From Ignavibacteria bacterium (lineage in GTDB: Bacteria; Bacteroidota; Ignavibacteria; Ignavibacteriales; Ignavibacteriaceae), in contig JAJTBZ010000070.1 in assembly GCA_021286645.1 (NCBI GenBank), positions 1 to 54,782 of the forward strand: a DNA stretch of 54,782 bases, read 5' to 3'. Below are positions 8,956 to 42,750 of this stretch, piece after piece (position 1 is the stretch's first letter; each line of letters begins with the position of its first letter). Both the position numbers and the translations under genes were made by a program. The notes beneath the pieces were generated by a model. That model did no database searches and was not told where the DNA came from. It saw only the letters and a program-made list of their open reading frames with translations.

Positions 8956-10914
8956 TTAATTATTTAACGCTTTGCGCAATTCACGAAGGTCTATATTCCC
9001 TTCAGCCAGTTTTCGAATTTGTCCCATAATCCAATTAGCGCGTGCTTCCGGATCGGTGGATGTATTAATCCCTAAGAACCGTTGTTTCAGGAACTCTATT
9101 CGGGAAACAATTTCAGCGTAAGTACAGTGCTTGTAATTAATGCTCATTAACACTGACTGAAAATCCATATTCGGGTGCTCATACATAACCGGTAAAATTT
9201 TACGGGCAAGTTCCAATCCGAGTTTTGAAGATTTCAAATATTTGAATATGTCGTAAATTTGTTCATACCGGAAATCGGCAGAACGGTTAAAATGCCCTTC
9301 AACGAACTTGAGAGTATGCCCAAAAAATGCTGTGACAAATTTTGGTGATAGTTCCAGGTCATTAATAATTTTTTCAATTACCGGAACCAGATTTTTCTTT
9401 AAGATATACGTATAAGTATCTACTGGCGCTTCCCACGTTTGCAGTTGATGATATCTGTCAATAATTTCAGCAGGCAACCCGGTACTTAGCTTTTCGATAT
9501 ATTCATTACTCAATGGAATTGGCGCAGAATCAGTATCCGGATACATCCTATCCGCTCCCGGTAAAACCCGTTCAAAAATTGTAGTACCATCAGATAAAGC
9601 TTTGCGTGTTTCTTTCGGTACACCTTCAAAAGCCATACGGCAACGTTCTTCAATGGTTTCTATTGCAGTTTTAATATCAGCTTCCGGGCCAAAGATAACT
9701 ACCTGGGCATCTTGTTCATTACTGCCTAACAACGACCGGATCTTCATCCAGTCTTCATCGGTCAATACGCTTTCAAAATCCTCGGAATGAGTCATATTTG
9801 GTTTTTCAATGCAAGCAATTACTTTTAAGCGATTTGCAAGTTCATCAGCAAAAGTCTTTCCGGGTTGAAGGAAATGCGAGAGTATTCCGGCGAAGCCAGG
9901 AAGATTAATTGCTACGGCTCTTTTTTTAATTTTATCCTTCTTGGCAATATGAGCAACTTTTACCTGTTTCTTGTCCAATACAGTATGTGAAACAGTCCAT
10001 GAAGATGCTGCATATCTTTCCAATAATATATTTTTAATGGCTAACAAAGCCCATTGACGAAAAGCTTCATTGTGTGTTAACCGTGGAATCCACCGTGCGT
10101 GAGCCACTCCCTTAATTTCAACCCTGGATCCACCCCGACAGCTAACATTTACATCCTGTCGTGAAGCCCCCATACCGGTACGAACCAAACCAGTACTCCT
10201 GTTCAGGAAGCGGATATAGTTGCATGTTTCCTCCACTTCGGCAGGATTTACACATTCCGGATATGTAACCGTCTCAATTAACGGCATGCCTAACCGGTCG
10301 GTCTTATATACCCGGACATGTCCGATATCAGAAATTTCCCGACAACTGTCTTCTTCGATACTTAGCTGAATCAGACGAATTTTTTTATGCCGTAGCGGAA
10401 GTTCGCCTTCCACACCAATAATAGCCGTTCTCTGAAAACCGGTGGGAATGCTTCCATCGAGATATTGTTTACGGGTAATATGCACTTCACCTACAATATT
10501 TAATTTACAAAGTAAAGAAATGCGGATGGCTATATCGAGAGCCTCCCTATTAATCGGGAAAGGCGGAGTATCATCCACTTCATACGTGCAGGTAGTTACA
10601 TTCTTAAGTTTATAAACAATTTCCTTACGGGTTCTAAACTCCATTAATGCTGTACCATCATATTCACCCAACTCGCTAAGTGTTGGCCGCATATGACGAA
10701 TTACTTCAGCATCGTATTCGTTATCTGATTGGAATACTCCTGCAGGGCACCGGCAAAATAGTTTCTCTGATGTTAATAACTGCTGATGTACTTCCAGCCC
10801 TGACATGAATCCAATACGGTCATAATCTTGTTGAGAGGCATCACGAAGAGGAACATAACCAATGTTGCTGCGTGTGTTTTGATAATTGGTCTGGGGATCG
10901 AACATTTTCTGCAT
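8956..10914 (-). CDS. gatE: Glutamyl-tRNA(Gln) amidotransferase subunit E (archaeal-type GatE)
   Basis: GatE is the transamidase subunit that phosphorylates the glutamyl group of Glu-tRNA(Gln) and amidates it with ammonia from GatD. It shares the GatB cradle fold: GLEVHQQLLTSEKLFCRCPAG at the N-terminus is the GatB/GatE signature, with a CxC pair that helps bind zinc. At 652 residues it is far longer than GatB (about 480). The difference comes from an inserted AspRS-like (GAD-type) region at about residues 270-430, present in GatE and absent in GatB. The C-terminal 150 residues form the helical and YqeY-like tail that binds the tRNA elbow (ARANWIMGQIRKLAEGN). The ATG at 10914 has AAGAG upstream, and an exact TAATTTTG promoter element lies at 10946-10953. 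Confidence 0.93.
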   Translation of the reverse strand: MQKMFDPQTNYQNTRSNIGYVPLRDASQQDYDRIGFMSGLEVHQQLLTSEKLFCRCPAGVFQSDNEYDAEVIRHMRPTLSELGEYDGTALMEFRTRKEIVYKLKNVTTCTYEVDDTPPFPINREALDIAIRISLLCKLNIVGEVHITRKQYLDGSIPTGFQRTAIIGVEGELPLRHKKIRLIQLSIEEDSCREISDIGHVRVYKTDRLGMPLIETVTYPECVNPAEVEETCNYIRFLNRSTGLVRTGMGASRQDVNVSCRGGSRVEIKGVAHARWIPRLTHNEAFRQWALLAIKNILLERYAASSWTVSHTVLDKKQVKVAHIAKKDKIKKRAVAINLPGFAGILSHFLQPGKTFADELANRLKVIACIEKPNMTHSEDFESVLTDEDWMKIRSLLGSNEQDAQVVIFGPEADIKTAIETIEERCRMAFEGVPKETRKALSDGTTIFERVLPGADRMYPDTDSAPIPLSNEYIEKLSTGLPAEIIDRYHQLQTWEAPVDTYTYILKKNLVPVIEKIINDLELSPKFVTAFFGHTLKFVEGHFNRSADFRYEQIYDIFKYLKSSKLGLELARKILPVMYEHPNMDFQSVLMSINYKHCTYAEIVSRIEFLKQRFLGINTSTDPEARANWIMGQIRKLAEGNIDLRELRKALNN

Positions 10915-27956: not shown

Positions 27957-30083
27957 TTATTTAATAAGAACCATTTTTTTCACAGCCGAAAAATTTCCGG
28001 CGTGCAATGAATAAAAATAAATACCACTAGGCAGGTGACTTGCATTGAAAGTAATTGAGTACTCCCCTGCGGTCTTTACTTCATTAACGAGCGTGCTTAC
28101 TTCCCGCCCCAACACATCAAATACTTTCAGCACAACATTGCCATTGCCCTGAATAGTATAATTTATTGTTGTTGTAGGGTTAAACGGGTTTGGATAATTT
28201 GGAGATAAAGAAAAATCCTGTTGTTTCCCTTTTATATTGCTATCACCGGTCTGTTTATCGAGATTAGCGCCCAGTGCTACAATTGAAACCGGTCCGGCTG
28301 GTAAAGACTCTTTAGTAAGCTGGTTTACTGCCGAAACTTTGTATTGCACTGTATAAGTAGTACCGCCACCACTGGTTTGTTCACAATAATCCTGATAACT
28401 TGTTGATGTAGTTGATGCACATAGTACCCAATCAGATCCTGATGACCGTTTCTTATAGATTTTATAGGAGCTCAAATTCGGCTCGGTATTTGCCTGCCAG
28501 GTAATTACCGGATGATTTTGCGCACTGGATGAAATTGTTATTCCCTGAGGAATTGAAGGCGCGGCAGAGGAAGCGGTTTTTACATATATATCAAAAATTG
28601 CCAAACCATTTGCCATGCTTTTTAACTGAAAACCTATCCCTGTTGCCTGCCCGTCAGCCCGTTGTGAGTTTGGATTACTCCACGGTGAAAACACTTCAAC
28701 AAAACCGGGGCGAAACGCATCCTTTCCTTCTCCATTTCTGGCCAATACTACCTGATGAGTATTATTTGGGCCTTCTCTGTATAACGTTTCATAATTTAAT
28801 GTTGTACCCAGGCCAGGGTTGTAAAAAGGTATTTTATCAGCTGCAAACCAACCCGTTCCTCTATTGGGGGGTCCACAACGAACTACGGGTAATTGTCCAT
28901 TCCCCCAATCATTTTGATCCCATCGGATGACATTCCAGTCAAACCGGCCGGCAGCCGAAATTAGCTTCATAAAGTTTGCGCCACAGGTCGGGTCGGAAAA
29001 AGCATCCTGTCGAATTACATAGAGCCCTTTTTCATTCAGATCGCTTGAGCTTTTATCCCAATTGGATATCCTCTGATGATTTTCAACGTAAAAATACTGA
29101 TCAGTTGCTGCATCAATAACAAACCGATATGCATTACCCGTGGTGATATAATCTGTTAAGGTCGCGTTGCTTATTGTTTGTGTAGTAGTATCGATTGTTG
29201 TCAGGTTACACCAACCTAATAGATATCGCTCGAATGCGTTAATCATATATGATCGTACTTCATAACCGGAAAGCATTGCCCAAAAAGCGTGGCCATTATG
29301 CATATTGTTGTGACCAATTAAGTCATGTGCGAATTCATGAATAGAGAACCTGAATGCATCTTTATAAAAATAGTCGGGAATGGTACACCCCTGATCGCCA
29401 ACTATCCTCGCCCCATTATCAACGGGAACATTCCAGATATCCGTTGAGCCATACCAATAGAAATCCAGAGTGGTCATAATCCAGTCCCTGTCGTCATTCG
29501 AGTATTCCATGGCAATGTTTCGCCATACAAAAAACACATAATCTACTACTCCATCAGGTTGGTTGGGATGATTATAAGCTGATGACAGGTCCCAATTGTC
29601 GTATTTTGCAAAATTAATAACGGGATCAAGTTGCTGCGTAATTATTTCTCCCTGAATATCGCCCATCCTTTTGTGATTATATATATAATAATCCTTGGTA
29701 TGCAGAGCAGTTACGGAAACCACATCACCAATAACATGTAAATTATGGAGAGACATCTGATCAAAGTAATCTGTTAAAGAACCCGGCGTAGGGGTTCCCG
29801 TCCAGGATGTATCAACCCAACTGTTCATATTATACGGATTTCCATTTAGCGGCCATAGCTGAGCGCGTGCCGGATCGGAGGGAGTATAGGAATCCTCGGG
29901 GAATTTACAAAATACGATCAGTACTCTCAATGTACCCTGTGAAGGTAAAAATAGTCCCCCAACCTGCGAACACGTGCGAACCGGCATAACCTTCTCTTTT
30001 GTTCGATAATTATATACTTCCATCTGCCCGTAGATGGAAGTAATACAGGCAACTAATAACGCAATTGTATAAAAACGTTTCAT
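27957..30083 (-). CDS. M6-type secreted metalloprotease with fibronectin III and T9SS sorting domain
   Basis: An exported protease of 708 residues. Start: ATG at 30083 has AAGGG 7 nt upstream and gives a signal peptide (MKRFYTIALLVACITSIYGQ); the frame's earlier start at 30143 lacks both. The zinc motif HEFAHDLIGHNN (near 29,320-29,345) fits the HExxH of the immune inhibitor A (M6) family. VLIVFCKFPEDSYTPSDP and SLTDYFDQMSL near the N-terminus are M6-domain features. Then follow a fibronectin type III module (SIPQGITISSSAQNHPVITW onward) and a T9SS domain with NYPNPFNPTTTINYT, GREVSTLV and PSGIYFYSL, ending MVLIK. The protein is probably secreted and anchored by the type IX system and degrades extracellular protein. 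Confidence 0.88.
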   Translation of the reverse strand: MKRFYTIALLVACITSIYGQMEVYNYRTKEKVMPVRTCSQVGGLFLPSQGTLRVLIVFCKFPEDSYTPSDPARAQLWPLNGNPYNMNSWVDTSWTGTPTPGSLTDYFDQMSLHNLHVIGDVVSVTALHTKDYYIYNHKRMGDIQGEIITQQLDPVINFAKYDNWDLSSAYNHPNQPDGVVDYVFFVWRNIAMEYSNDDRDWIMTTLDFYWYGSTDIWNVPVDNGARIVGDQGCTIPDYFYKDAFRFSIHEFAHDLIGHNNMHNGHAFWAMLSGYEVRSYMINAFERYLLGWCNLTTIDTTTQTISNATLTDYITTGNAYRFVIDAATDQYFYVENHQRISNWDKSSSDLNEKGLYVIRQDAFSDPTCGANFMKLISAAGRFDWNVIRWDQNDWGNGQLPVVRCGPPNRGTGWFAADKIPFYNPGLGTTLNYETLYREGPNNTHQVVLARNGEGKDAFRPGFVEVFSPWSNPNSQRADGQATGIGFQLKSMANGLAIFDIYVKTASSAAPSIPQGITISSSAQNHPVITWQANTEPNLSSYKIYKKRSSGSDWVLCASTTSTSYQDYCEQTSGGGTTYTVQYKVSAVNQLTKESLPAGPVSIVALGANLDKQTGDSNIKGKQQDFSLSPNYPNPFNPTTTINYTIQGNGNVVLKVFDVLGREVSTLVNEVKTAGEYSITFNASHLPSGIYFYSLHAGNFSAVKKMVLIK

Positions 30084-30337
30084 GTACGTACCCTTATTTT
30101 GATGAACATTATGATTATTGCTTCCAAAGAAGGTTATCGCCAATTTATGGAAGCAGATTACTCAACTTTTGTGTAACGCCAGGAGGTGTTTTCTTATTAC
30201 ATCAAGAATGAGGGAATGAATCGAAGGACGGTGCGCGCGTTCCGGACACCAGCAATATTACAATTTACGATTTATATATGATTGCGCTAATTTTAGCTCA
30301 AAAGATATAGCATCTGTAAAAATGTTGTCAATAACAA

Positions 30338-30638
30338 TCAATTACCAAAACTATATCTTACCCTTACCACTATCTTTGGTTCACTAATCAAGTACGCATG
30401 ATATTTAATCATAATAGTGATAGATTGGCATTCCCCTTCAAAGAGATGTTCTCTCGCTTAAAAATATACCCCTACATTGATACAGCTTACTAAAATCCCG
30501 GCTCATAAATATGAATTCACCGTGTAATCCATTTAACGCCTGTATTGGTACATTTGCAGACACGCGCGTATTTACCCCCAATGCAAAAAGCGCTTTCCAA
30601 GAATAGAACATTGTATAGAACAATGAGTGTACCCGGCT
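30338..30638 (-). pseudogene. Decayed 3' end of an outer-membrane beta-barrel gene
   Basis: On the minus strand one frame reads ALGVNTRVSANVPIQALNG and then GEFIFMSRDFS, typical barrel strands. Near 30,465-30,500 the sense continues in a second frame as INVGVYF, then an in-frame TAA (30458-30460), then AREHLFEG and finally KIVVRVRYSFGN before TGA at 30338. That last stretch is a textbook final barrel strand. One frameshift and one internal stop are needed to join the parts, and no signal peptide or upstream half remains. The call is by eye and could be chance. The rest of the gap (30084-30337) shows nothing recognisable. The region ends just before the neighbouring T9SS cargo gene. Confidence 0.4.
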
Positions 30639-30663
30639 TCAGGAGAGTTAAATGGGGAAAATT

Positions 30664-31560
30664 TTATTTCAATAGAATCATTTTTTTTGCTGTGGCGAAT
30701 CCGGCAGATTCCAACTTATATATATAGACACCAGTTGGAAGATTTGATGCATTAAAATTATATGAGTACCCACCGGCAGGGAGTTCCTTATTTACAATAA
30801 TTGCAATTTCCTGACCCAAAGAGTTAAAGATTCGAAGCTTAACCAACCCTGTAACAGATGTCTGGAAAGATATGTTCGTTGAATTATTAAATGGGTTTGG
30901 GTAATTTTGACTTAGGTTAAATGATTTCGCCAGTCCGGCATCATTGCCATTTTTCACATCCAATGTACCGAGAGTATCCTGATCAATAACACATCCCAGA
31001 AGCCTTTTATATTCAACTTCGGTACCGTACCAAACAATTCCTCTGCCCTTACTAAAATACACTGTTTTGTAAAAGAGCCCGCCTGTTCCGGGGGTAACTC
31101 TTGAAGGCAGACCATAACCTAATTGAATAGTAGGAGCCTGAATCCCCGAGCATATTCCGGAACCCATTTGAATTACTTTTGCAACTTCAAGCGGTTGGTT
31201 TTGTGAATCATATTGTGTAACGAATATTTCATCGGTAGTAAGGGGAAGTTTGAGTGCTATCTTATCGAAAGTATAGGGCCCCCAAAGAGTATCTTCATTT
31301 GAATTGATTTTATAATTCCAATAGAACAAAGACTTTTCACCCGACTTTTTTGTTGTTACTGACTGAAACCTGACATATGTGTAGCCACAATTATCAATTG
31401 AGTCACCAACAATCTTAACAAGTTCAGTAGAATAATCGGAATGCAGATACAACCAATGGTTACCTACCGTATGCGGAAAAAAACTTGTGGAATCCTGCAC
31501 TCGCGCGTACAGAGTTATTGAAGCGATAAGAACAAATGCAACAATTACTAAATATCTCAT
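30664..31560 (-). CDS. T9SS sorting-domain protein of unknown function
   Basis: A 298-residue exported protein that I cannot assign. A signal peptide (MRYLVIVAFVLIASITLYA) is followed by about 190 residues of beta-rich sequence beginning FFPHTVGNHWLYLHSDYS. FPxxxGNxWxY openings are common in small lipocalin-like or extracellular proteins of this lineage. The C-terminal 80 residues are a type IX sorting domain: NYPNPFNNSTNISFQ, LGQEIAIIV, PTGVYIYKL, ending MILLK. GGGGAGCAGG upstream of the ATG is a strong ribosome site, and a TTTG-N20-TAAGTTTC promoter lies about 80 nt upstream. The protein should be exported to the cell surface or medium. Confidence 0.82.
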   Translation of the reverse strand: MRYLVIVAFVLIASITLYARVQDSTSFFPHTVGNHWLYLHSDYSTELVKIVGDSIDNCGYTYVRFQSVTTKKSGEKSLFYWNYKINSNEDTLWGPYTFDKIALKLPLTTDEIFVTQYDSQNQPLEVAKVIQMGSGICSGIQAPTIQLGYGLPSRVTPGTGGLFYKTVYFSKGRGIVWYGTEVEYKRLLGCVIDQDTLGTLDVKNGNDAGLAKSFNLSQNYPNPFNNSTNISFQTSVTGLVKLRIFNSLGQEIAIIVNKELPAGGYSYNFNASNLPTGVYIYKLESAGFATAKKMILLK

Positions 31561-31639
31561 AACCTGCTCCCCTGCATAAAAATATTTAAGTTATGTTAAA
31601 CCATAATGTCCGGAATGAGTGAATTGCCCATTCCAGCAC

Positions 31640-31671
31640 GAAACTTATATAATAATTATTTATAATCCAAA
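31640..31671 (-). promoter_or_regulatory. Bacteroidota-type promoter of the T9SS protein gene at 31560
   Basis: On the minus strand TTTG (31671-31668) is followed by exactly 20 nt and TAAGTTTC (31647-31640), one base off TAnnTTTG. Transcription would start near 31633. The remainder of the 31561-31857 gap is AT-rich with nothing else recognised. Confidence 0.55.
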
Positions 31672-31857
31672 TAGTTTTTATGGTTAGACAATAACCCGGG
31701 ATTCAGTATTTATCGATGATATTTTAACTATTGCGGTGTTTTAATTAAATATTTAAAGTAGCCCTATAGTTTTCCTCCGGCAATTTGAATTTTATTAATT
31801 TATTTCCCGTTAAACTTTATTTATACTGCGCTAGTAAAATTTCTATAAAAATAAAAA

Positions 31858-31887
31858 AGGGATGCCGAAATTAATTCCGGCATCCCT
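31858..31887 (-). terminator. Terminator of the glmS-GTPase-arcC-argF operon
   Basis: AGGGATGCCG (31858-31867) and CGGCATCCCT (31878-31887) pair perfectly around a 10-nt loop. On the minus strand the stem is followed by six T. It lies 23 nt past the ornithine carbamoyltransferase stop. Confidence 0.9.
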
Positions 31888-31910
31888 GAGAATAACCAAC
31901 AGACCTGGTA

Positions 31911-32852
31911 TTACATTACCAGAGCCATGATTGCCTTTTGTACATGGAGCCTGTTTTCAGCTTCGTCGAATACAACCGAATTCGGCGAATCAATCACTTC
32001 ATTCACTACTTCTTTGCCGCGATATGCCGGTAAACAGTGCATGAATAAGTAATCTGCTTTCGCGTGTTTTACCAAAGCTTCATTTACCTGTAACGGCTGG
32101 AAAACTTTTTCGCGTTCGTTCGCTTCGCCTTCCATACCCATACTGGCCCACACATCCGTATAAATAACGTCGGCATCTTTAACGCCGGCTACCGGATCGG
32201 TGGTGATTTCAACTTTACTGCCCTGATACTTTGCATTTGCCTGAGCATTTGCAACTATTTCGGCATTCGGTTGATATTCGTTACCAGACGGGGTTACAAT
32301 AGTAACATCCATACCAACTTTTGAACAACCATTCAATAAGCTGTGTGCCATGTTATTGCCGCCATCTCCCACATAGGTAAGTTTCAGGCCTTTGAGTACC
32401 TGTTTCTTTTCCAGAATGGTAAATAAATCGGTTAACACCTGGCATGGATGCAGCAAATCGGTCAGTCCGTTAATAATCGGGATTGAACCGAAACGGGCCA
32501 GGTCTACAACTTCCTGATGATCGAAGGTACGGATCATAATACCATCGAGGTAGCGTGAAAGTACTTTCGCGGTATCGGAAATACTTTCTTTTTTTCCCAA
32601 ATGGATGCTCTTACCATCGAAAAACATACCTACGCCGCCAAGCTCATACATACCGACTTCAAAAGAAATGCGGGTACGGGTAGAAGGTTTGGAAAAAATC
32701 ATTCCTAATTTCTTGCCTTCGAGCAGGCGGTGAGGTTCACCAGATAATCTTTTAAGTTTAAGTATTTTTGCCAGTTCAAAAATCTGATACACTTCTTCAA
32801 TGCTCAGATCATGAATGGAAATAAGGCTTTTACCTTTCATTGATACAGCCAT
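31911..32852 (-). CDS. argF: Ornithine carbamoyltransferase
   Basis: It transfers the carbamoyl group from carbamoyl phosphate to ornithine to give citrulline, or the reverse in catabolism. The 313-residue protein has the carbamoyl-phosphate motif SKPSTRTRISFE and the IMIRTFDHQEV strand. It also has HPCQVLTDLFT and the ornithine-loop motifs DVWASMGMEGE and HCLPAYRG. The last usually reads HCLPAHRG; the His-to-Tyr change is mild. It is the last gene of the glmS operon, 13 nt after carbamate kinase. That pairing favours the catabolic direction (citrulline to ornithine plus carbamoyl phosphate, then ATP), but no arginine deiminase is present. An anabolic role remains possible. Confidence 0.93.
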   Translation of the reverse strand: MAVSMKGKSLISIHDLSIEEVYQIFELAKILKLKRLSGEPHRLLEGKKLGMIFSKPSTRTRISFEVGMYELGGVGMFFDGKSIHLGKKESISDTAKVLSRYLDGIMIRTFDHQEVVDLARFGSIPIINGLTDLLHPCQVLTDLFTILEKKQVLKGLKLTYVGDGGNNMAHSLLNGCSKVGMDVTIVTPSGNEYQPNAEIVANAQANAKYQGSKVEITTDPVAGVKDADVIYTDVWASMGMEGEANEREKVFQPLQVNEALVKHAKADYLFMHCLPAYRGKEVVNEVIDSPNSVVFDEAENRLHVQKAIMALVM

Positions 32853-32865
32853 TGTTCAACTCCAA

Positions 32866-33807
32866 TTATTTAGTAATTATTGTTCCTGAACCCGGTTTAC
32901 CCAATGAATTCGAATCAGTAATAATAGCTTTATCGCCACCAGACTGTACGAATTCGATCGCGGCTTTAACTTTCGGGCCCATGCTGCCGGCTTCAAAATG
33001 GCCTTCATTATAGTATTGCAACGCTTCATCAACCGTAATAGTATCAAGATACTTCTCATCGGGTTTTCTGAAGTTAATTGCTACCTTATGAATATCGGTA
33101 AGAATAAATAATTCTTCAGCACCAATATTGCGAGCCATTAAAGAAGCAGCTAAATCTTTATCGATAACGGCTTCTTTTCCGCCAAAGAGTCCATTCGGCA
33201 TCACTTCAACAGGAATTCCGCCGCCGCCGGAGGCTATAACAACAATGCCTTCTTCGGCTAAACGCTTAATCAGCTCGGTATTAAAGATTTTTTGGGGGCG
33301 AGGTGAAGCCACAACGCGGCGCCATCCCCTGCCACGAGGATCTTCTTTAAACTTCCACTGATGTTTTTCTGCAAGTACTTCAGATTCTTCTTTTGTGTAA
33401 TAAGGGCCAACAGGCTTTGTCGGGTTGGCAAATGCCGGATCCTGATTATCAATAAGCACCTGGGTAACTAAAGTAACCACGTTCTTATCAATTTTTTCTT
33501 CCATCAGTACGTTACGCATCTGCTGTTCAATTACATAGCCTATACCGCCCTGGGAGTCTGCAACACAGATATCCAAAGGCATTTTCGGAATGCTGAAATC
33601 TTTATTACCGGCTTCATTACGTAAGAGAATATTCCCGACCTGCGGTCCATTTCCATGAGTAATAACAACCGATTCGAACTCAGAGAACAGCTTCGCGATA
33701 CACTGAGCGGTTTGATATGTATTTGATTCCTGCTCTTCGATAAAACCTACCTGGTCACCCCGCAGGAGAGCATTCCCGCCAAGGGCAACTACTGCCATTT
33801 TTTTCAT
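32866..33807 (-). CDS. arcC: Carbamate kinase
   Basis: It makes ATP from carbamoyl phosphate and ADP, releasing carbamate, which breaks down to ammonia and CO2; the reverse also occurs. The 313-residue protein has the family hallmarks: VALGGNALL at the N-terminus, VITHGNGPQVGNILLR, the substrate loop ADSQGGIGYVIEQ, VVASPRPQKI, the SGGGGIPV nucleotide loop, AVIDKDLAASLMA and GSMGPKVKAAIEF. Its ATG overlaps the stop of the GTPase gene by 4 nt, so the two are translationally coupled. Confidence 0.95.
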   Translation of the reverse strand: MKKMAVVALGGNALLRGDQVGFIEEQESNTYQTAQCIAKLFSEFESVVITHGNGPQVGNILLRNEAGNKDFSIPKMPLDICVADSQGGIGYVIEQQMRNVLMEEKIDKNVVTLVTQVLIDNQDPAFANPTKPVGPYYTKEESEVLAEKHQWKFKEDPRGRGWRRVVASPRPQKIFNTELIKRLAEEGIVVIASGGGGIPVEVMPNGLFGGKEAVIDKDLAASLMARNIGAEELFILTDIHKVAINFRKPDEKYLDTITVDEALQYYNEGHFEAGSMGPKVKAAIEFVQSGGDKAIITDSNSLGKPGSGTIITK

Positions 33808-35123
33808 AAGAAGTTCCGATCCTTCAATATTTTTTCAACTGTTACATCACCGGTCTCATTCAGATCGTAAGCTACACGGGTATGTGGTTTATTAATTTTA
33901 AGTAAACGACCTAAATCAATCGGGGTACCGATGATAACAGAATCACAATCTGTGTTATTGATTGTATCTTCAAGGTCTTTGATTTGCTTATCACTATAAC
34001 CCATAGCCGGCAATAATTTACCAATTTTGGGGTATTTCTTATAGGTATCGGTAATTGAATCCACCGTAAAAGGACGAGGATCAATGATTTCGGCAGCGCC
34101 ATGATTCCAGGCAGCAACCATTCCCGCACCATAAGTCATTTCGCCGTGAGTTAACGTTGGACCGTCTTCAACTACCAAAACGCGTTTACCGGATATAATA
34201 TTCGGATTTTCAACGGAGATAACCGAAGCGCCATCAATAACTTTTGCAGCCGGATTAACAACCTTAACATTTTCACGTACGGTTGCAATATCTTCCGGTT
34301 TAGCTGAATCAATTTTATTGATAACAACTACATCGGCAAGGCGAAGAGCAGTATTACCAGGATAATACATTAATTCATGACCCGGGCGATGGGGATCTAC
34401 TACTGTGAAAGTAAGATCTGATTTATAGAATGGAATATCGTTATTTCCACCGTCCCAGATAATAATATCGGCTTCCTGTTCAGCCTGACGGAGGATAGCT
34501 TCATAATCAACACCGGCATAAATAACGCCGCCGCTAACAATATGTGGTTCGTATTCTTCAATTTCTTCTATGGTGCACTGATGTAATTTCAGATCTTCCA
34601 ATGAACCGAAGCGTTGAACTTTCTGTTTTACTAAATCACCATACGGCATAGGATGACGAATGGCAACAACTCTTTTGCCTGCTTCGCGCAACATAGTTGT
34701 AATTTTACGCGAGGTTTGCGATTTACCGGCACCGGTACGAATAGCAATTATCGAAATAACCGGTTTCGTACTCTTGATCATTGTTTCTTCTGCACCTAAT
34801 AATCTGAATGATGCACCTGCCGCATTTACAATTGCTGCACGGGTCATTACATAATTAAAAGTTACATCTGAATATGCAAATACAACTTCATGAACGTTCA
34901 ACTCTTTGATCAGTTTTACCAGATCCGACTCGTCATAGATCTTGATGCCCTGAGGATAGAGTTTACCGGCTAATTCTGCCGGGTATAATCTGCCATCGAT
35001 ATTTGGTATCTGAGTGGCTGTGAAGGCTACAACATTGTAGTCCGCGTTGTCCCTGTAGTACACGTTAAAATTATGGAAGTCGCGTCCCGCCGCGCCCATA
35101 ATGAGTACATTTTTCGGGGTCAT
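33804..35123 (-). CDS. Cyclic 2,3-diphosphoglycerate synthetase-like P-loop protein
   Basis: A 439-residue cytoplasmic protein of the family named after archaeal cyclic 2,3-diphosphoglycerate synthetase. The N-terminal Rossmann-like part (NVLIMGAAGRDFHNFNVYYR) is followed by a P-loop, IAIRTGAGKSQTSRKI, then IIWDGGNNDIPF (Walker B-like), VDPHRPGHE and VVINKIDSAKPED, whose NKxD is the guanine-specificity motif. NKID points to GTP rather than ATP as the nucleotide, although the archaeal enzyme uses ATP. Bacteria with this protein are not known for large pools of the cyclic compound. The tight coupling with carbamate kinase and ornithine carbamoyltransferase suggests a different role in carbamoyl-phosphate or ammonia metabolism, perhaps as an activating GTPase; that is inference. 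Confidence 0.85.
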   Translation of the reverse strand: MTPKNVLIMGAAGRDFHNFNVYYRDNADYNVVAFTATQIPNIDGRLYPAELAGKLYPQGIKIYDESDLVKLIKELNVHEVVFAYSDVTFNYVMTRAAIVNAAGASFRLLGAEETMIKSTKPVISIIAIRTGAGKSQTSRKITTMLREAGKRVVAIRHPMPYGDLVKQKVQRFGSLEDLKLHQCTIEEIEEYEPHIVSGGVIYAGVDYEAILRQAEQEADIIIWDGGNNDIPFYKSDLTFTVVDPHRPGHELMYYPGNTALRLADVVVINKIDSAKPEDIATVRENVKVVNPAAKVIDGASVISVENPNIISGKRVLVVEDGPTLTHGEMTYGAGMVAAWNHGAAEIIDPRPFTVDSITDTYKKYPKIGKLLPAMGYSDKQIKDLEDTINNTDCDSVIIGTPIDLGRLLKINKPHTRVAYDLNETGDVTVEKILKDRNFL

Positions 35124-35144
35124 AGATTGTTCCTTATATTATTG

Positions 35145-36977
35145 TTATTCGACTGTCACGCTTTTCGCGAGATTTCTTGGTTGATCAACATTCAGACCTT
35201 TTTTAACAGCAATATAATACGCAAGTAATTGCAAAGGTATCACTGTTAAAATCGGCATTAACATTCTAATTGTATTCGGAATGCGAATGACATAGTTTGC
35301 ATACTTTTCTATAACATCATCATCTTCACTGGCGATGGCAATAATATTGCCGCGCCGGGCACGAACTTCCTGGATATTACTAATAATTTTATCATACGTA
35401 GAATCCTTGGGTGCAATAAACACAACCGGCATATTTTCGTCTACAAGCGCTATAGGCCCGTGCTTCATTTCAGCCGCCGGATATCCTTCAGCATGGATGT
35501 AAGAAATTTCTTTTAATTTTAACGCACCTTCAAGTGCAACCGGAAAATTATATCCCCTGCCCAGGTACAGGAAATTTGTTGCATCTTTAAAGATTTCAGC
35601 AATTTCTTCTACTTGTTTCCGTTGGGAAAGTATTGTTTTAACCTTTTCGGGTATTTTTAAGAATTCTTCTACGATAGCTTTGCCATCTGCAAGACTCATA
35701 TCACGTTTTCTAGCTGCAGCAAGGGTAATTAATGCCAACACCGTTAACTGCGCGGTAAAAGCTTTTGTTGAGGCAACGCCAATTTCCGGGCCGGCATGTA
35801 TATATACACCGCTATCGCTCTCACGGGCAATTGAGCTGCCCACAACGTTACAAATACCCAAACATAACGCGCCTTTTCTTTTCGCTTCTTTTAATGCGGC
35901 CAAAGTATCGGCTGTTTCACCGCTTTGCGAAATAAACAGAATCGTATCTTCCGGTTGAATAATCGGGTTACGATACCGGAATTCCGAGGCGTATTCTACT
36001 TCTGTAGGAATTCGTAGAAACTGTTCGAACATATACTCACCTACCAGACCAGCATGCCATGAGGTACCACATGCAGTAAAAACGGCTCGTTTACATCGAG
36101 CTATATGAACCAATTCACTTTCGATACCGCCAAGTTTGGCAGTCCCCTCTTCGGGAATCAACCTTCCACGAAGTGAATTCTGAATTGATTCGGGTTGTTC
36201 CATAATTTCTTTCAGCATGAAGGTTTCATATCCACCTTTATCGATTTCTTCCATCGTCATGCTAATTTCAGTTACTTCTTTAATAATATCTTCATCAAGG
36301 ATAGTTTTTGCCAAAAATCCTTCTGCCCGAATTTCGGCGACCTCGCCGTCCTCCAGATAAACTACTTGTTTAGTGTATGCCAGCAGAGCCGAGACATCAG
36401 AAGCAATATAATGCTCGTGATCGCCGATCCCGATTACCAAAGGAGAGCCTTTTCTGGCAGCTATTATTCTATCGGGTTCTTTAGAATATATAATAGCCAG
36501 TCCGTATGTACCTTCTATTTCAGATAATGCAAGACGAACAGCCTTAAAGAGATCAATGTCTTTTTTCAGGAAGCTATCAATTAAATGTGCAATAACTTCT
36601 GTATCGGTCTCACTGACAAATTTATACCCCTGTTTTTGCAGAGAGGTGCGCAAGGATTGGAAATTTTCAATAATACCGTTATGAATTAAAAACAAGTCGC
36701 CCGTGGTATTTGTATGCGGGTGCGCGTTAGTTTCATTTGGTTCACCATGAGTAGCCCAGCGGGTATGCCCAATACCAACGGGGGCGGTATAAACGTTTGT
36801 ACCAACACGTTTCTCAAGTTCAGAAACCTTACCCTTATTTTTAATAACAATCGGCTTTTGGTCAACTAATAACCCTACTCCGGCCGAATCATACCCCCGA
36901 TACTCGAGCCTTTTCAGACCCTCGATCAAGATCGGGACAGCATTCTTCGAACCTATATAGCCAACTATTCCACACAT
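35145..36977 (-). CDS. glmS: Glutamine-fructose-6-phosphate aminotransferase (isomerizing)
   Basis: It forms glucosamine-6-phosphate from fructose-6-phosphate and glutamine, the first step toward peptidoglycan and LPS amino sugars. The 610-residue length is normal. Cys2 (MCGIVGYIG) is the N-terminal nucleophile after Met removal, and HTRWATHGEP belongs to the glutaminase pocket. Two SIS domains follow (CGTSWHAGL; FISQSGETADTLAAL; YLGRGYNFPVALEGALKLKE). The C-terminus DQPRNLAKSVTVE is universal. The ATG has CGAGGAA upstream. A TAAATTTG promoter element lies 21 nt upstream, so this is the first gene of the four-gene minus-strand operon. The next gene starts 21 nt after its stop. Confidence 0.97.
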   Translation of the reverse strand: MCGIVGYIGSKNAVPILIEGLKRLEYRGYDSAGVGLLVDQKPIVIKNKGKVSELEKRVGTNVYTAPVGIGHTRWATHGEPNETNAHPHTNTTGDLFLIHNGIIENFQSLRTSLQKQGYKFVSETDTEVIAHLIDSFLKKDIDLFKAVRLALSEIEGTYGLAIIYSKEPDRIIAARKGSPLVIGIGDHEHYIASDVSALLAYTKQVVYLEDGEVAEIRAEGFLAKTILDEDIIKEVTEISMTMEEIDKGGYETFMLKEIMEQPESIQNSLRGRLIPEEGTAKLGGIESELVHIARCKRAVFTACGTSWHAGLVGEYMFEQFLRIPTEVEYASEFRYRNPIIQPEDTILFISQSGETADTLAALKEAKRKGALCLGICNVVGSSIARESDSGVYIHAGPEIGVASTKAFTAQLTVLALITLAAARKRDMSLADGKAIVEEFLKIPEKVKTILSQRKQVEEIAEIFKDATNFLYLGRGYNFPVALEGALKLKEISYIHAEGYPAAEMKHGPIALVDENMPVVFIAPKDSTYDKIISNIQEVRARRGNIIAIASEDDDVIEKYANYVIRIPNTIRMLMPILTVIPLQLLAYYIAVKKGLNVDQPRNLAKSVTVE

Positions 36978-36997
36978 AATTTCCTCGATTATTTATA

Positions 36998-37028
36998 CAA
37001 ATTTAGATAATAAAAGCCGGTTTAAAAA
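36998..37028 (-). promoter_or_regulatory. Promoter of the glmS operon
   Basis: On the minus strand TAAATTTG (37005-36998) matches TAnnTTTG exactly. A TTTT (37028-37025) sits 19 nt upstream in place of TTTG. Transcription would begin near 36991, about 14 nt before the glmS ATG. The intergenic region shared with glnN is AT-rich. Confidence 0.5.
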
Positions 37029-37223
37029 CTTAATTACTGTAACGATAAAATACTAATTCGCATTGGTTTAATAAAATAAGTGCATAAAATCCCTTTAAAA
37101 GTAAGTCAGTGATCACAAAACCCCTTAAGAAAAAAAGAAAATGTGGTAAATCACAGGCCGCGAAAATAATTAATTTTCCCATATTTATTATTTTCTTAAT
37201 GCTTTTTGCAACTTTTCCCTTAT

Positions 37224-37231
37224 TATATTTG
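37224..37231 (+). promoter_or_regulatory. Candidate -7 element for glutamine synthetase
   Basis: TATATTTG matches TAnnTTTG exactly, about 65 nt before the ATG at 37296. The nearest TTTG (37205-37208) is only 15 nt upstream instead of about 20, so this is tentative. No clear operator for a nitrogen regulator was recognised in 37006-37295. Confidence 0.3.
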
Positions 37232-37295
37232 GTTATTATTAAAATGTTACTTATTTTTTAAATAAACATTTAATAATTACTTGAAAAGGATTGCT

Positions 37296-39476
37296 ATGAT
37301 ATTACGATTCCATGCACTGAAAGAGGCAAATTCTCATGTTGCCTTCAGTACCGTCGCGCCTACAGAAAGGCCTGAAGAGTATTTTGGTTCTCATGTATTC
37401 GATTTATCGAAAATGAAACAATACCTTTCGAAGGAAGCGTATAAAGTGGTTGTAACCGCACGCGAAACCGGCGCGAGAATTGACCGAGAGATTGCAAATG
37501 AAATTGCCAATGGTATGAAGGCATGGGCAGCTACAATGGGAGTTACTCATTACGCGCATTGGTTTCAGCCTCTTACCGGTACAACTGCCGAAAAACATGA
37601 TTCTTTTCTTGATTATGATTTTGATGAACGCCGCATCATTGAGAATTTCTCCGGCTCTCTTTTGGTTCAACAGGAACCCGATGCTTCCAGTTTCCCGAGC
37701 GGTGGTATTCGCAGTACTTTTGAAGCTCGTGGTTATACAGCCTGGGATCCGGCCTCACCGGCTTTCATTATAGATAAAACTCTCTGTATTCCCTCGATAT
37801 TTATTTCATATACCGGCGAGAGTCTCGATTTTAAGACACCCCTTTTGAAATCGAATTCATTAATTGATAAAGCGGCTACTGCAGTTGCAAAATTGTTTGA
37901 TAAAAATGTAAAGAGGGTTACACCAACACTTGGTTGGGAGCAGGAATTCTTCCTGGTAGATTATTCACTCTATCAAACCCGGCCCGATCTTATGCTTACC
38001 GGCCGAACCCTGATCGGGCATGCTGCAGCAAAAGATCAACAGTTGGAAGACCATTATTTCGGTTCCATTCCCGAACGCGTAAAAGAATTCTTTAAAGATT
38101 TAGAAATCGAATGTTACCGTTTGGGAATCCCCGCAAAAACGAAACATAATGAAGTTGCACCAAACCAGTTCGAACTGGCTCCTATTTTCGAAGAAGTTGA
38201 TCTGGCTGTTGATCATAACATTTTATTGATGGATGTTATGTCTAAAATCGCGCGCCGTCATAATTTTGCAATTCTTTTACATGAAAAACCATTTGCAGGT
38301 ATAAACGGCTCCGGTAAGCATAACAACTGGTCCATGGCCACCGATACGGGCGTGAATCTCCTTCAACCGGGAAAAACCCCAAATGATAATTTACAATTCA
38401 TTACCTTCATGATTAACGTTGTGAAAGCAGTACATGAAAATGCTGATATCATGTTGGCGAGCATTGCCACAACAGGTAACGAGCACCGCCTGGGCGGCAA
38501 CGAAGCACCTCCGGCAATCTTCTCGGTATTTTTAGGATCTTATCTTACTGCTCTGTTAGATCAGATAGAGAATACCGTACCACAGGATATTAACGTTGCA
38601 CGTGAAGAAATGAAGCATTTATCATTGGATGTAGAGCGAATTCCGCAAATTATTTTACATAATACCGATCGGAACCGTACATCTCCATTTGCCTTTACCG
38701 GAAATAAATTCGAATTCCGCGCCGTTGGCTCAACAGCGAATTGTGCCCCGGGCATGATAGCTCTTAATACCGCGGTTGCTAAACAATTATTCGAATTTAA
38801 GAATGATGTAGATAAAGCTGTTGCAGGTGGTTTAAACAAACAGAATGCAATTTTACACGTGATTCATGGTTATACAATATCCTCAAAAAATATTCGTTTT
38901 GACGGAAACAATTATTCTCAGGAGTGGCAGGATGAAGCTGCACGACGCGGTTTACCAAATATCCGTACGGCCCCTGAAGCATGGAAAGCTCTGGTTTCCG
39001 AAAAAGCACATAAGTTATTTGTCGATAATAGTATTTATTGTGAGAGGGAACTGGAAGCCCGGTATGAAATTAACCTTGAAGGATATATTAAGAAAATTAA
39101 AATCGAAGCAAAGGTATTGCTCGATTTAGTATTAAATTATATCGTTCCGACCGGCATGAAATATCAAAATATGCTGATCGAAAATGCAAGAGGTTTAGCT
39201 GAGCTCGTTGGAGAGGAGTCAGCTGTACCGGCAAAAACTTTGCTCAAGGCAATTTCGGCTCATATCACCGGGCTACAGGATAACGTAAATAGCCTGAACA
39301 AGGCACTGAACTATGCTGACAGTCTGCCGTCTCTGGCAGAATCGGCAGGGTCTTATTCAACAGAAGTTCGCAGCCTGTTCGAAAAATTACGCTACCATAC
39401 CGATGAACTTGAAATGATTATCGATAATGAGGCCTGGCCACTCGCGAAATACCGCGAATTGCTCTTTATTCGATAA
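37296..39476 (+). CDS. glnN: Type III glutamine synthetase
   Basis: It makes glutamine from glutamate, ammonia and ATP. At 726 residues it is of the long GSIII type, not the 450-470-residue GSI. Family features include EYFGSHVFDL near the N-terminus, THYAHWFQPLTG, GGIRSTFEARGYTAWDP, TPTLGWEQEFFLVD (metal-binding Glu), KHNEVAPNQFELAPIFE, GINGSGKHNNWS, NEAPPAIFSVFLG and DRNRTSPFAFTGNKFEFR. Start: ATG at 37296 with AAAAGGA just upstream is preferred over the in-frame TTG at 37281, which would include that ribosome site in the coding region. It is divergent from the glmS operon, placing glutamine production next to a glutamine consumer. A strong hairpin follows. Confidence 0.97.
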   Translation: MILRFHALKEANSHVAFSTVAPTERPEEYFGSHVFDLSKMKQYLSKEAYKVVVTARETGARIDREIANEIANGMKAWAATMGVTHYAHWFQPLTGTTAEKHDSFLDYDFDERRIIENFSGSLLVQQEPDASSFPSGGIRSTFEARGYTAWDPASPAFIIDKTLCIPSIFISYTGESLDFKTPLLKSNSLIDKAATAVAKLFDKNVKRVTPTLGWEQEFFLVDYSLYQTRPDLMLTGRTLIGHAAAKDQQLEDHYFGSIPERVKEFFKDLEIECYRLGIPAKTKHNEVAPNQFELAPIFEEVDLAVDHNILLMDVMSKIARRHNFAILLHEKPFAGINGSGKHNNWSMATDTGVNLLQPGKTPNDNLQFITFMINVVKAVHENADIMLASIATTGNEHRLGGNEAPPAIFSVFLGSYLTALLDQIENTVPQDINVAREEMKHLSLDVERIPQIILHNTDRNRTSPFAFTGNKFEFRAVGSTANCAPGMIALNTAVAKQLFEFKNDVDKAVAGGLNKQNAILHVIHGYTISSKNIRFDGNNYSQEWQDEAARRGLPNIRTAPEAWKALVSEKAHKLFVDNSIYCERELEARYEINLEGYIKKIKIEAKVLLDLVLNYIVPTGMKYQNMLIENARGLAELVGEESAVPAKTLLKAISAHITGLQDNVNSLNKALNYADSLPSLAESAGSYSTEVRSLFEKLRYHTDELEMIIDNEAWPLAKYRELLFIR

Positions 39477-39539: not shown

Positions 39540-39621
39540 GTTTTATCACTTTCCTTTTGTTTCAGAACTTTCATATTTTACGCCTTGATTTTCCTATTTG
39601 CAAAACTTATCCGGAGTCTGC

Positions 39622-42600
39622 ATGTCGCTATCTCGTTACCTGACCGCATTACTGATCTTATGTATCTGGTCACCAGAATTATTCTCCCAGCAAGTTCCTA
39701 TAGAAAATTCCGGTTTCGAAAACACTATGGCAGGATGGCAAATAACCAGAGGCCCCGAAACTGATTTTTCGGTGGATAAAACGAAAAGAAGCGAGGGTAT
39801 CTCCGCGTTATGTATTCATCATGCCACTTATAAACAATCGAGAATTATATCGGCCCCTGTTTCTCTAAAAATTGGTCATTTATATAAAGTCAGTGCAAAA
39901 ATCAGCACAGAAAATGCGTTCACAGAACCGGCAAAGCAATACCCGACTCCCGTTGCGGCCTGCATAAGCATGGCATCGTTTCCCTTTACCAATCATTCCC
40001 CTGCCGTAGGTGCTACACAAAATTGGCAAACTGTTGAGATGTATTTTTTCGCAACTTCCAAAGTTGATAATGTAGTTCTGAACTTTGGATATAACGGGGA
40101 GGCTGCCGGGAAAGCCTGGTTTGATGAAATCCAGTTAACTGAAATTTCTGATATAACCACAATTATACCCAAAGAAACTATCAAATGGTATGGCAAAGCG
40201 TTCCGTTTTGAAGATCGGGGCTGGATAAATATTCATATTGAAGGAAAACCATTCGAACGTGGCATTCAGTATGGGTATCTGGCAGCAAACGAAATCAAAG
40301 ATTTTATCACTAAGTTTTCAACACAAAAACAAAAAGATAACCCACAGGCTGCCTGGAGTAGTTTCCGGGGAACTACCGATCTATTATTTCTGCGGAAATT
40401 TGACGAAGAATACTTACTGGAAATGAAAGGAATTGCAGAAGGGGCAGCGAAAGCCGGGATAACGATATTCGGAAGAGCAGTTGACTTCCTCGATATCGTA
40501 ACTATCAATTCTGCAATTGATTTGGATTATGCTCAGGATGCAATTCATAAAACTGCCACTCCGCTCACAGGACGCAGTTTCCTCTCCGCCGAAGATGATC
40601 TTGATATCCGGGAAAGACTGCATAAATGTTCCGGGTTATTGGCAACTAAAAGTGCCACAAAAGATCATCGAATTGTGTTTGGCCAGTTGTTCATGTGGGG
40701 TGGATATACCGGTCCGCTTTGGAACATACTTCTGGATGTTGTACCCGAAAAAGGAAATCGACTGGTATATGAAACTTTCCCCGGAGGAATTCATTCAGGA
40801 GCAGATTTTTATATAAATTCGTCCGGTATTATGATTGGCGAGACTACAGTTGGTCAAACACCATTTAATATGGACGGTACACCGCAATCGAATCGGATAC
40901 GCAAAGCGGCTCAATACGCGAACTCGATCGATGATGTAGTTAAAATAATGACCACCAATAACAATGGTTTATATACAAATGATTGGCTTATTGGTGACAC
41001 TAAAACCGATGAGATCGCTATTCTTCTATTAGGCACAAAATCATTCAAGCTCTGGAGAAGCAGCAGTAATGACTTTTATGGCGGACAAAAAGATTGGTAC
41101 TGGAGTAATAACAATGCCAAAGATATTGATGTTCGAAAGGAGTATCGGGTAAATGATGACAACGCTCCGATGGATCTTACATTCAGACCCTGGGATAGAG
41201 ACGTGGCATTTTATAATTTCTATGAACTGGCCAAAGGCACTATTGATGCTAATGCCTGTATCAATTTGTGGAACTCATCACCGATAAACCGCCCGCATGC
41301 CTGTGATGGTAAAGTTGTTTCTTCCGATATGGCGGAAAAAATGATGTTCTTTATCAATTATGGGAAAGTTACGCTCCGTGAGGTTTTTGTTAACGAAAAT
41401 GGCAGGATACCCGATTTACCCGGCGCAATTCCCCGTTTATCGTTGGGCTATTATACCTGTAACCCGGTATTTATTGCAGAAAAAATTAAGGAATTATCGC
41501 CATTACCATCACCTAAATCGGCCGATGTTGTATACAATCTGAAAGATGTTAAGGATATTTATTCATTTGATAAATCCTTACTCTGGCATAATACCGTGTA
41601 CCCGGCAACAGAATCGGAAAACTGGTTTAATGCCGCCTCGGCAGCCTATTGGGCAAGCCTGAACAATCTTCCGTCTGTTCCGGCAAAAGCTTTTGCATCA
41701 TTGCGGGACGACCTGACCGAGTTAAATGTTCGATATCTTTATACTGAATCCCGTGAAGGGAAAATTAGTGCGTATGATTCACGGACTGTGTATAATGAGT
41801 ACAAGCAATACCAGTTCCCCAGAATCAAAGGCACCTATGCACTTCATCAACTCCGGTTGTATCTTGGGAATACTGTTTTTTCACGTGCAATGAATGTAAT
41901 TCATGAAAAGTACATGGAAAAACCTGTTACTACAGCCGATGTGATAAATATTTTTAATAGCGCATCCGGCAAGGACCTCTCTGATTTTATTAATCAATTT
42001 ATTAAGCGGGATGATATTCCTCAGCTAACCTGGGGAATGAAATTTACCGGAACAGGAGATAAAGGCAGTGTGGTTCTTGTAGTACATCAACAGGGTAAGC
42101 CGTATCACCTTTTCACTACTGTCACATTCAATACCGGCAAAGAGATTATTGTAAAACCGGTCGAGATAAGTAACAGTCTTGACAGTATAACGATTGCTAT
42201 TAATGGTACACCTTTGGAGTTAGATTTTAACAGTGGTAATGATATATTACTCTCCAAAAGAAACCCCTGTACCCTTTCAAATTTTTACGATGATTTTTCG
42301 AATACCATTATTGTGTATGGCACAACTACGGAAATTGAAGCACAACATGCATTAGCCCTGCGCTTGGCGAGAACAGCAGCGGATAGATTTACCGAAATAG
42401 TCTTACCGGTAAAAAAAGAAAGTGAACTTACCAATGAGGAACTCTCTGCCAAAGATATGATCTTATTAGGGGGCACAAACTATAATTCGTTAACGCGGAA
42501 AATTTGTGAAATAAATAAAATTTCTTACGGTAAAAACTTCTTTGTATGGAATGGTAAGACATATTCAGAACCCGATGATGGATTACTGTACGTCGTCCCG

Positions 42601-42750
42601 AATCCATACAACCCGAAAAAAATTATTTACATGTTCTTTGGCAATAGTAGTTTGCAATTATACAATATGCTGAAAACTTTACCTCGACTGCCCCAATATG
42701 CAGTATATAAGGGCGACACAGTTATCCAGCGCGGTTACCGCGAAGATTAA
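39622..42750 (+). CDS. Exported C45-type N-terminal nucleophile hydrolase fused to an M1-peptidase-like C-terminal part
   Basis: A 1,042-residue exported protein. ATG at 39622 with GGAG upstream gives the signal peptide MSLSRYLTALLILCIWSPELFSQ. Residues of about 25-180 form a carbohydrate-binding-like jelly roll (VPIENSGFENTMAGWQIT). Next comes a C45/acyltransferase-like domain. HKCSGLLATKSATKDHRI places Cys336 as the expected autocatalytic nucleophile, followed by FGQLFMWGGYTGPLW and INSSGIMIGETT. From about 41,820 to 42,030 the text reads like the C-terminal helical region of M1 aminopeptidases (LHQLRLYLGNTVFSRAM, SGKDLSDFINQFI), yet no HExxH zinc motif is present. A final domain (IIVYGTTTEIEAQHALALRL, DMILLGGTNYNSLTRKI) occurs in some secreted hydrolases. 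No T9SS domain is visible. The substrate is unknown; an amide or peptide bond is likely. Confidence 0.72.
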   Translation: MSLSRYLTALLILCIWSPELFSQQVPIENSGFENTMAGWQITRGPETDFSVDKTKRSEGISALCIHHATYKQSRIISAPVSLKIGHLYKVSAKISTENAFTEPAKQYPTPVAACISMASFPFTNHSPAVGATQNWQTVEMYFFATSKVDNVVLNFGYNGEAAGKAWFDEIQLTEISDITTIIPKETIKWYGKAFRFEDRGWINIHIEGKPFERGIQYGYLAANEIKDFITKFSTQKQKDNPQAAWSSFRGTTDLLFLRKFDEEYLLEMKGIAEGAAKAGITIFGRAVDFLDIVTINSAIDLDYAQDAIHKTATPLTGRSFLSAEDDLDIRERLHKCSGLLATKSATKDHRIVFGQLFMWGGYTGPLWNILLDVVPEKGNRLVYETFPGGIHSGADFYINSSGIMIGETTVGQTPFNMDGTPQSNRIRKAAQYANSIDDVVKIMTTNNNGLYTNDWLIGDTKTDEIAILLLGTKSFKLWRSSSNDFYGGQKDWYWSNNNAKDIDVRKEYRVNDDNAPMDLTFRPWDRDVAFYNFYELAKGTIDANACINLWNSSPINRPHACDGKVVSSDMAEKMMFFINYGKVTLREVFVNENGRIPDLPGAIPRLSLGYYTCNPVFIAEKIKELSPLPSPKSADVVYNLKDVKDIYSFDKSLLWHNTVYPATESENWFNAASAAYWASLNNLPSVPAKAFASLRDDLTELNVRYLYTESREGKISAYDSRTVYNEYKQYQFPRIKGTYALHQLRLYLGNTVFSRAMNVIHEKYMEKPVTTADVINIFNSASGKDLSDFINQFIKRDDIPQLTWGMKFTGTGDKGSVVLVVHQQGKPYHLFTTVTFNTGKEIIVKPVEISNSLDSITIAINGTPLELDFNSGNDILLSKRNPCTLSNFYDDFSNTIIVYGTTTEIEAQHALALRLARTAADRFTEIVLPVKKESELTNEELSAKDMILLGGTNYNSLTRKICEINKISYGKNFFVWNGKTYSEPDDGLLYVVPNPYNPKKIIYMFFGNSSLQLYNMLKTLPRLPQYAVYKGDTVIQRGYRED

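Follow-up and report, generated by a model that had tools for sequence, protein, structure and literature searches.

What does a P-loop protein do in an operon that joins carbamate kinase (CK) to ornithine carbamoyltransferase (OTC) with no gene for arginine deiminase (ADI)? The operon lies in the window, i.e., the whole stretch of DNA analysed, the 54,782 nucleotides of contig JAJTBZ010000070.1 (assembly GCA_021286645.1; our contig C73), which belongs to a 3.72-Mb genome of an Ignavibacteria bacterium in 108 contigs, 99.0% complete. We conclude that the operon very probably encodes an arginine synthetase pathway in which the P-loop protein is a homologue of ArcE, the comparison with the characterised ArcE (TK2200 of Thermococcus kodakarensis) being one of description. 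The pathway is most probably already known, and the window operon adds a bacterial case. The features are as follows:

36998..37005, minus strand: TAAATTTG, possible (inferred) Bacteroidota-type -7 element, 20 nt ahead of the glmS ATG
35145..36977, minus strand: glmS, glutamine--fructose-6-phosphate transaminase, 610 aa; TIGR01135 824 bits, above the equivalog cut-off; opens the operon
33804..35123, minus strand: probable arcE (P-loop protein), 439 aa; N-terminal Rossmann-like domain plus SIMIBI-type P-loop domain; named from arcC linkage and fold
32866..33807, minus strand: arcC, CK, 313 aa; TIGR00746 385.5 bits against a cut-off of 358.25
31911..32852, minus strand: ArgF-type OTC, 313 aa; TIGR00658 417 bits against a cut-off of 280.85
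31858..31887, minus strand: intrinsic terminator, 13-bp stem, 4-nt loop and T-run, just past the OTC stop at 31911

The four genes share one strand, with a 21-nt gap between glmS and the P-loop gene, a 4-nt ATGA overlap between the P-loop gene and CK, and a 13-nt gap between CK and OTC, exactly as the original prediction, made from the sequence alone, had described them; the strong terminator that it placed after the last gene is likewise present (13-bp stem and T-run at 31887-31858). The promoter that it placed before glmS is weak, as a sigma-70 scan of 29500-38500 gave 30 sites against 28.2 ± 5.1 in shuffles, no excess; the candidate -7 element is read against TAnnTTTG, the Bacteroidota-type consensus. 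glmS, arcC and OTC were assigned by NCBIfam equivalog cut-offs, and the OTC translation carries DVWASMG and HCLPAYR, matching DxWxSMG and HCLPA, which we take to be the ornithine-binding motifs of OTC. The P-loop protein has no NCBIfam family match at E ≤ 0.001, and in Pfam it matches cobW weakly, at 24.2 bits. As had been claimed, ADI is absent from the matches: neither TIGR01078 nor PF02274 finds an arcA product in the source genome at E ≤ 0.001. The genome does carry a separate carbamoyl-phosphate synthetase, carA-carB, so that carbamoyl phosphate can be formed from ammonia without the P-loop protein. Of the role first proposed for it, the association with carbamoyl-phosphate enzymes and with a route that involves ammonia stands.

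The gene set fits a pathway that has been described. In T. kodakarensis, ArcE (TK2200) converts arginine, ADP and phosphate into citrulline, ammonia and ATP, ArcB (TK0871) and ArcC (TK2158) act after it, the characterised enzyme uses ADP/ATP, and the distribution of ArcE follows that of arcC and largely complements that of ArcA (PMC13260591). The suggestion that the window holds an unrecognised pathway gives way to this published ArcE-ArcB-ArcC route. For the window homologue, what it catalyses, which way the flow runs, which nucleotide it takes and by what mechanism it works are all inferred. In the degradative direction, it would turn arginine, ADP and Pi into citrulline, NH3 and ATP by phosphoryl transfer between the nucleotide and the ureido oxygen of citrulline, with ammonia as the other partner; OTC would convert citrulline and phosphate into ornithine and carbamoyl phosphate, and CK would turn carbamoyl phosphate into a second ATP, NH3 and CO2. 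ArcE would in this way replace ADI and conserve the energy that the deiminase would lose. Our literature search found no paper joining the name cyclic 2,3-diphosphoglycerate synthetase (cDPGS) with carbamate kinase, and CK, OTC and GTPase searched together gave only unrelated papers.

The P-loop gene is tied to arcC well beyond this contig. In a sample of 296 genomes of the phylum (292 of them ≥90% complete and ≤5% contaminated), the P-loop gene occurs in 54, full-length arcC in 43 and both in 42 (Fisher p 6.7e-39, relatedness of the genomes ignored). In these counts arcC matches of 19.0-38.5 bits were left out and taken as other amino-acid kinases, three matches just under the cut-off (352.9-357.9 bits) were included, and an arcC-like open reading frame (ORF) of genome G152 was excluded from the full-length count. 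The two genes lie within 5 kb of each other in 31 of the 42 genomes, always on the same strand, and within 100 nt in 21; the remaining 11 pairs are on separate contigs (8) or distant on one contig (3). Linkage of the P-loop gene to CK is beyond chance, and the expectation that the gene order is functional and the neighbourhoods non-random is borne out, with the P-loop gene in 42 of the 43 genomes that have full-length arcC. A tblastn-confirmed scan of contigs for more relatives gave at least 582 matches, the best 80 of which were analysed; these are 64 to 83% identical to the window protein and are titled Ignavibacteria, Bacteroidetes, Calditrichota, KSB1, Zixibacteria, Marinimicrobia, Chloroflexi, Acidobacteria, Cloacimonadota and others. 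A P-loop ORF is callable in 77 of the 80 loci (L036, L058 and L064 are without one), and loci that end at a contig edge were scored as lacking neighbours. With an operon taken as same-strand genes separated by at most 200 nt, CK shares one with the P-loop gene in 27/77 loci and OTC does so in 22/77; the gene just before the P-loop gene is glmS in 22/77. The gene orders seen are glmS-P-CK-OTC, P-OTC-CK-ATC-like, OTC-CK-ATC-like-OAT-P and OTC-CK-P, where P is the P-loop gene, ATC aspartate carbamoyltransferase and OAT ornithine aminotransferase. Gene content, gene order, family assignments and co-occurrence are direct observations. An ArgS-family gene directly precedes the P-loop gene in five loci (by clustering; three checked), cases that include L046, L050, L078 and other Chloroflexi-titled loci, and is perhaps a further hint of arginine. 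The only plasmid matches to the P-loop protein are three haloarchaeal plasmids, on all three of which CK lies divergent beside the P-loop gene. On the Salinigranum marinum plasmid (L203), CK and an arcE-like gene are both fragmented, with an annotated IS1595 transposase between them.

No genome with full-length arcC lacks both the P-loop gene and an ADI match: of the 43, 33 carry the P-loop gene alone, 9 carry both and 1 carries ADI alone. In the last (G009), CK comes right after glmS, in the slot that arcE occupies in other genomes. This 43/43 result supports extending the archaeal ArcE finding to this bacterial phylum. The type of OTC varies along with ADI. Among 20 genomes of the window's own order in which the P-loop gene and CK are at most 100 nt apart, the nearby OTC is ArcB-type in 8 (7 with ADI) and ArgF-type in 12 (1 with ADI; p 7.7e-4, uncorrected); in 4 of these 12 (L173, L177, L180 and L181), two same-strand ORFs of about 430 and 1830 nt separate CK from OTC. 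Furthermore, argG is missing in 16 of the 30 tested genomes with the P-loop gene and CK, and 9 of the 16 are also without an ADI match. In 6 of these 9 (G132, G168, G180, G212, G232 and G283), OTC lies beside CK, and citrulline made by it could not reach ArgG because argG is missing; G140 and G290 have no OTC within the examined stretch around CK, and G176 has no OTC match. The absence of argG agrees with a degradative role and with the published statement on argG (PMC13260591).

Several observations weigh against the identification as ArcE. ADI and the P-loop gene occur together in nine genomes (8 strong ADI matches, 1 weak), so replacement is not exclusive. G152 has neither a P-loop gene nor an ADI match and yet carries an intact, divergent 369-aa arcC-like ORF (L130, G152:C15), which as a whole scores 240.9 bits against TIGR00746 (cut-off 358.25) and was matched in two stretches, of 155.9 and 83 bits; it counts against complementarity of ArcE and ADI if this ORF is a working CK. 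Conversely, the P-loop gene occurs without full-length arcC in 12 genomes (one partial match), and no OTC match accompanies the P-loop gene and CK of G176. Unrelated housekeeping genes flank the P-loop gene at many other loci, and 10 other neighbour genes that were scanned gave one each of Dus, ArgS, Obg, SUI1 and further unrelated families. The match to TK2200 was made against a published description. Finally, ADP/ATP is the nucleotide pair of the characterised ArcE, whereas the NKID of the window copy is of the guanine type.

The predicted structure bears on both the name cDPGS and the nucleotide. The AlphaFold2 model of the P-loop protein (pLDDT 93.2), used whole as the query with Foldseek and VIA-align, has a phosphoryl-transfer P-loop fold, which speaks for ArcE. 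Its top match is cDPGS (Z 21.3, root mean square deviation (RMSD) 11.6, 358 residues, about 16% identity); movement of the domains may explain so high an RMSD. Next come LpxK (Z 19.0, RMSD 3.2, 277 residues), HypB (Z 17.0, RMSD 3.0, 183 residues) and UreG (Z 15.8), which we take to be SIMIBI-class P-loop proteins and whose alignments omit most of the N-terminal domain. A sequence profile compared with the PDB also finds cDPGS (9sxb, E 2e-9) ahead of HypB (2hf8, E 0.003), and a haloarchaeal homologue bears the annotation cyclic 2,3-diphosphoglycerate synthase. Across a 57-member alignment of the family, mean column identity is 74%. In all 122 homologue ORFs, pooled across collections with duplicates included, the P-loop motif is RTG[CSA]GKS; the equivalent in cDPGS is GKR[VI]GKT, whose Lys145-Arg146 positions align with the Thr-Gly of the family loop. 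Lys145 and Arg146 of cDPGS bind 2,3-diphosphoglycerate (2,3-DPG), and the enzyme is confined to hyperthermophilic methanogens (PMC10690619). The binding pair is missing in the family because the loop is RTG[CSA]GKS in 122/122 ORFs. That the window protein is a true cDPGS is therefore hardly credible, for all that cDPGS is its best PDB match by sequence and by fold: identity is about 16%, the Lys-Arg pair is replaced by Thr-Gly throughout, and the gene is linked to arginine enzymes. The protein has the fold in common with cDPGS and, judged by its residues, is not convincingly one, and the doubt that the original prediction cast on the name was well placed.

The same prediction read NKID as a GTP-type motif. 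The motif is indeed present at residues 268-271 and aligned with the NKID of HypB, but the Asp of NKxD is kept in 102 of the 122 ORFs and absent in 20, two haloarchaeal homologues having NKEN instead. As NKID is incompletely conserved, GTP use is unproven, and the published enzyme works with ADP/ATP (PMC13260591). A GTPase that regulates or assembles CK and OTC in the manner of the HypB/UreG nickel chaperones would account for the aligned NKID, the HypB/UreG fold scores (Z 15.8-17.0) and the cobW match; the loss of the Asp in 20/122 ORFs and a two-domain architecture that is that of an enzyme, cDPGS, make this very unlikely. To our knowledge, CK and OTC need no metal chaperone. A little less probable still is a split carbamoyl-phosphate synthetase (CPS), in which the P-loop protein would make carbamate from bicarbonate and ammonia, CK would phosphorylate it and OTC would be supplied. 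Its companions, CK, OTC and, in relatives, an ATC-like protein, are all carbamoyl-phosphate enzymes, and two carB-less genomes retain the P-loop gene and CK: G283, with OTC and two ATC-like genes, and G176, with one ATC and no OTC match. However, 292/296 genomes have carB, among them 40 of the 42 in which the P-loop gene and arcC both occur, and in T. kodakarensis CK disruption barely affects growth without pyrimidines, whereas disruption of arcE or arcB does affect it (PMC13260591). We set the split CPS aside because carB is nearly universal and the published ArcE genetics explain the partner genes. T. kodakarensis has no CPS and is reported to draw carbamoyl phosphate from arginine (PMC13260591), and carB-less G176 and G283 may be parallels.

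If the P-loop protein is ArcE, the direction of flow is a separate matter. The window OTC is the sole gene over the TIGR00658 cut-off in the source genome (a second match is 221 bits below it), and argC, argJ, argB, argD, argG and argH are grouped on contig C102 with no OTC there; for these reasons the window OTC probably also serves arginine biosynthesis. An anabolic flow, in which carbamoyl phosphate from CarAB gives citrulline through OTC and ArcE, using free ammonia and a nucleotide, aminates this to arginine as a one-step alternative to ArgG/ArgH, is a serious though unlikely possibility. It would suit the presence of carA-carB, argG and argH, the ArgF-type of the sole OTC over the cut-off and the OTC-less arg cluster, and ArcE reportedly can also run toward arginine (Michimori et al. 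2024, PNAS). Against it, CK has no obvious use there when CarAB is present, argG is missing in 16/30 tested relatives with both genes, and some relatives pair the unit with the catabolic enzyme OAT, which accompanies the cluster in L119, L124, L125, L126 and L138 and precedes the P-loop gene in L061. The glmS-arcE-arcC-OTC unit may be amphibolic. With arginine in excess, each molecule of it would yield the cell two ATP by way of ArcE. Upstream of the operon, the divergent gene at 37281-39476 encodes a type III glutamine synthetase. As glmS uses glutamine, the ammonia that ArcE and CK release could be taken up again right beside the operon.

In same-class relatives, a putative further carbamoyltransferase often joins the unit. 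Of the 17 same-class genomes with full-length arcC, 13 have an ATC-like gene that follows CK on its own strand within 436 nt; in 12 of the 13, a second ATC that passes the cut-off lies elsewhere in the genome. We compared a clade of 13 such sequences, 12 from CK-linked same-class genomes and one from L049 (loci L049, L118, L119, L121-L126, L137, L138, L140 and L141); all 12 of their genomes that were tested have another ATC. All 13 have T[RH]x[ED] in place of the TRIQ found in four others (L038, L069, L136 and L143), and the Lys of KGES is lost in 10 of the 13; we take the TRIQ and KGES Lys positions to bind aspartate in E. coli ATC. Among those with TRIQ, L136 (G176) is a CK-linked ATC, and L038, L069 and L143 lie beside a P-loop gene with no CK in the examined stretch. 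These replacements suggest that the altered paralogue is a carbamoyltransferase with another substrate. We tentatively propose, with more doubt than confidence, that it hands carbamoyl phosphate derived from arginine to another, probably less acidic, amine or takes it back from one, and that ArcEs with an intact NKxD, the window's among them, may use GDP/GTP in place of ADP/ATP. Our impression, with the literature on the paralogue not searched, is that the branch is undescribed.

Other features of the genome were seen in passing. A second OTC-family gene (G000:C105) was tried as a catabolic OTC and set aside, as it adjoins a YgeY homologue and is under the OTC cut-off. At this locus (L083, L200) the YgeY homologue has an OTC/YgeW-like carbamoyltransferase as its neighbour, with a glycyl-radical-enzyme activase close by, and the pair is perhaps a ureide degradation unit. 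Although carAB is present, no pyrB of the genome passes the cut-off and PyrD is matched only weakly (53 bits at best); the pyrimidine pathway looks incomplete, or there is an assembly gap. Elsewhere in the window, GatD (7538-8923, minus strand; TIGR02153 502 bits, cut-off 324) and the adjacent GatE (8956-10914, minus strand; TIGR00134 408.7 bits, cut-off 319.55) are encoded, GatDE being an archaeal Glu-tRNA(Gln) amidotransferase that stands here in a bacterial genome; near gatDE is a subclass B1 metallo-beta-lactamase homologue (5848-6597, minus strand; NF033088 246.8 bits, cut-off 200). In a 1050-aa protein (39598-42750, plus strand), NF040521 (89.8 bits) marks a C45 autoproteolytic acyltransferase domain, and M1 peptidase is matched weakly.

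If the arginine synthetase assignment is right, bacterial genes of this P-loop family named cyclic 2,3-diphosphoglycerate synthase are probably arginine synthetases, bacteria with ArcE would gain two ATP per arginine and not one, and OTC plus CK without a deiminase would no longer be an apparent gap.

A comparison with known systems places the operon closest to the ArcE-ArcB-ArcC pathway of T. kodakarensis: both have OTC and CK without ADI, and both have a partner that co-occurs with arcC and largely complements ArcA. The window genes differ in forming one operon with glmS and in an ArgF-type OTC, and the window genome has CarAB, ArgG and ArgH whereas T. kodakarensis is without CPS (PMC13260591). 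The arginine deiminase pathway arcABC similarly joins CK and OTC in one operon for arginine catabolism, whereas the window genome has no ArcA match and its OTC is ArgF-type, not ArcB-type. LpxK and HypB/UreG resemble the P-loop domain in fold (Z 19.0; 17.0; 15.8) but leave the N-terminal domain mostly unaligned and act on other substrates. The cDPGS of Methanothermus fervidus (8ORU and 8ORK; PMC10690619) matches the predicted two-domain architecture and P-loop domain best (Z 21.3), yet the window protein is about 16% identical to it, has no Lys-Arg in the P-loop, and carries an extra NK motif and a linkage to arginine enzymes.

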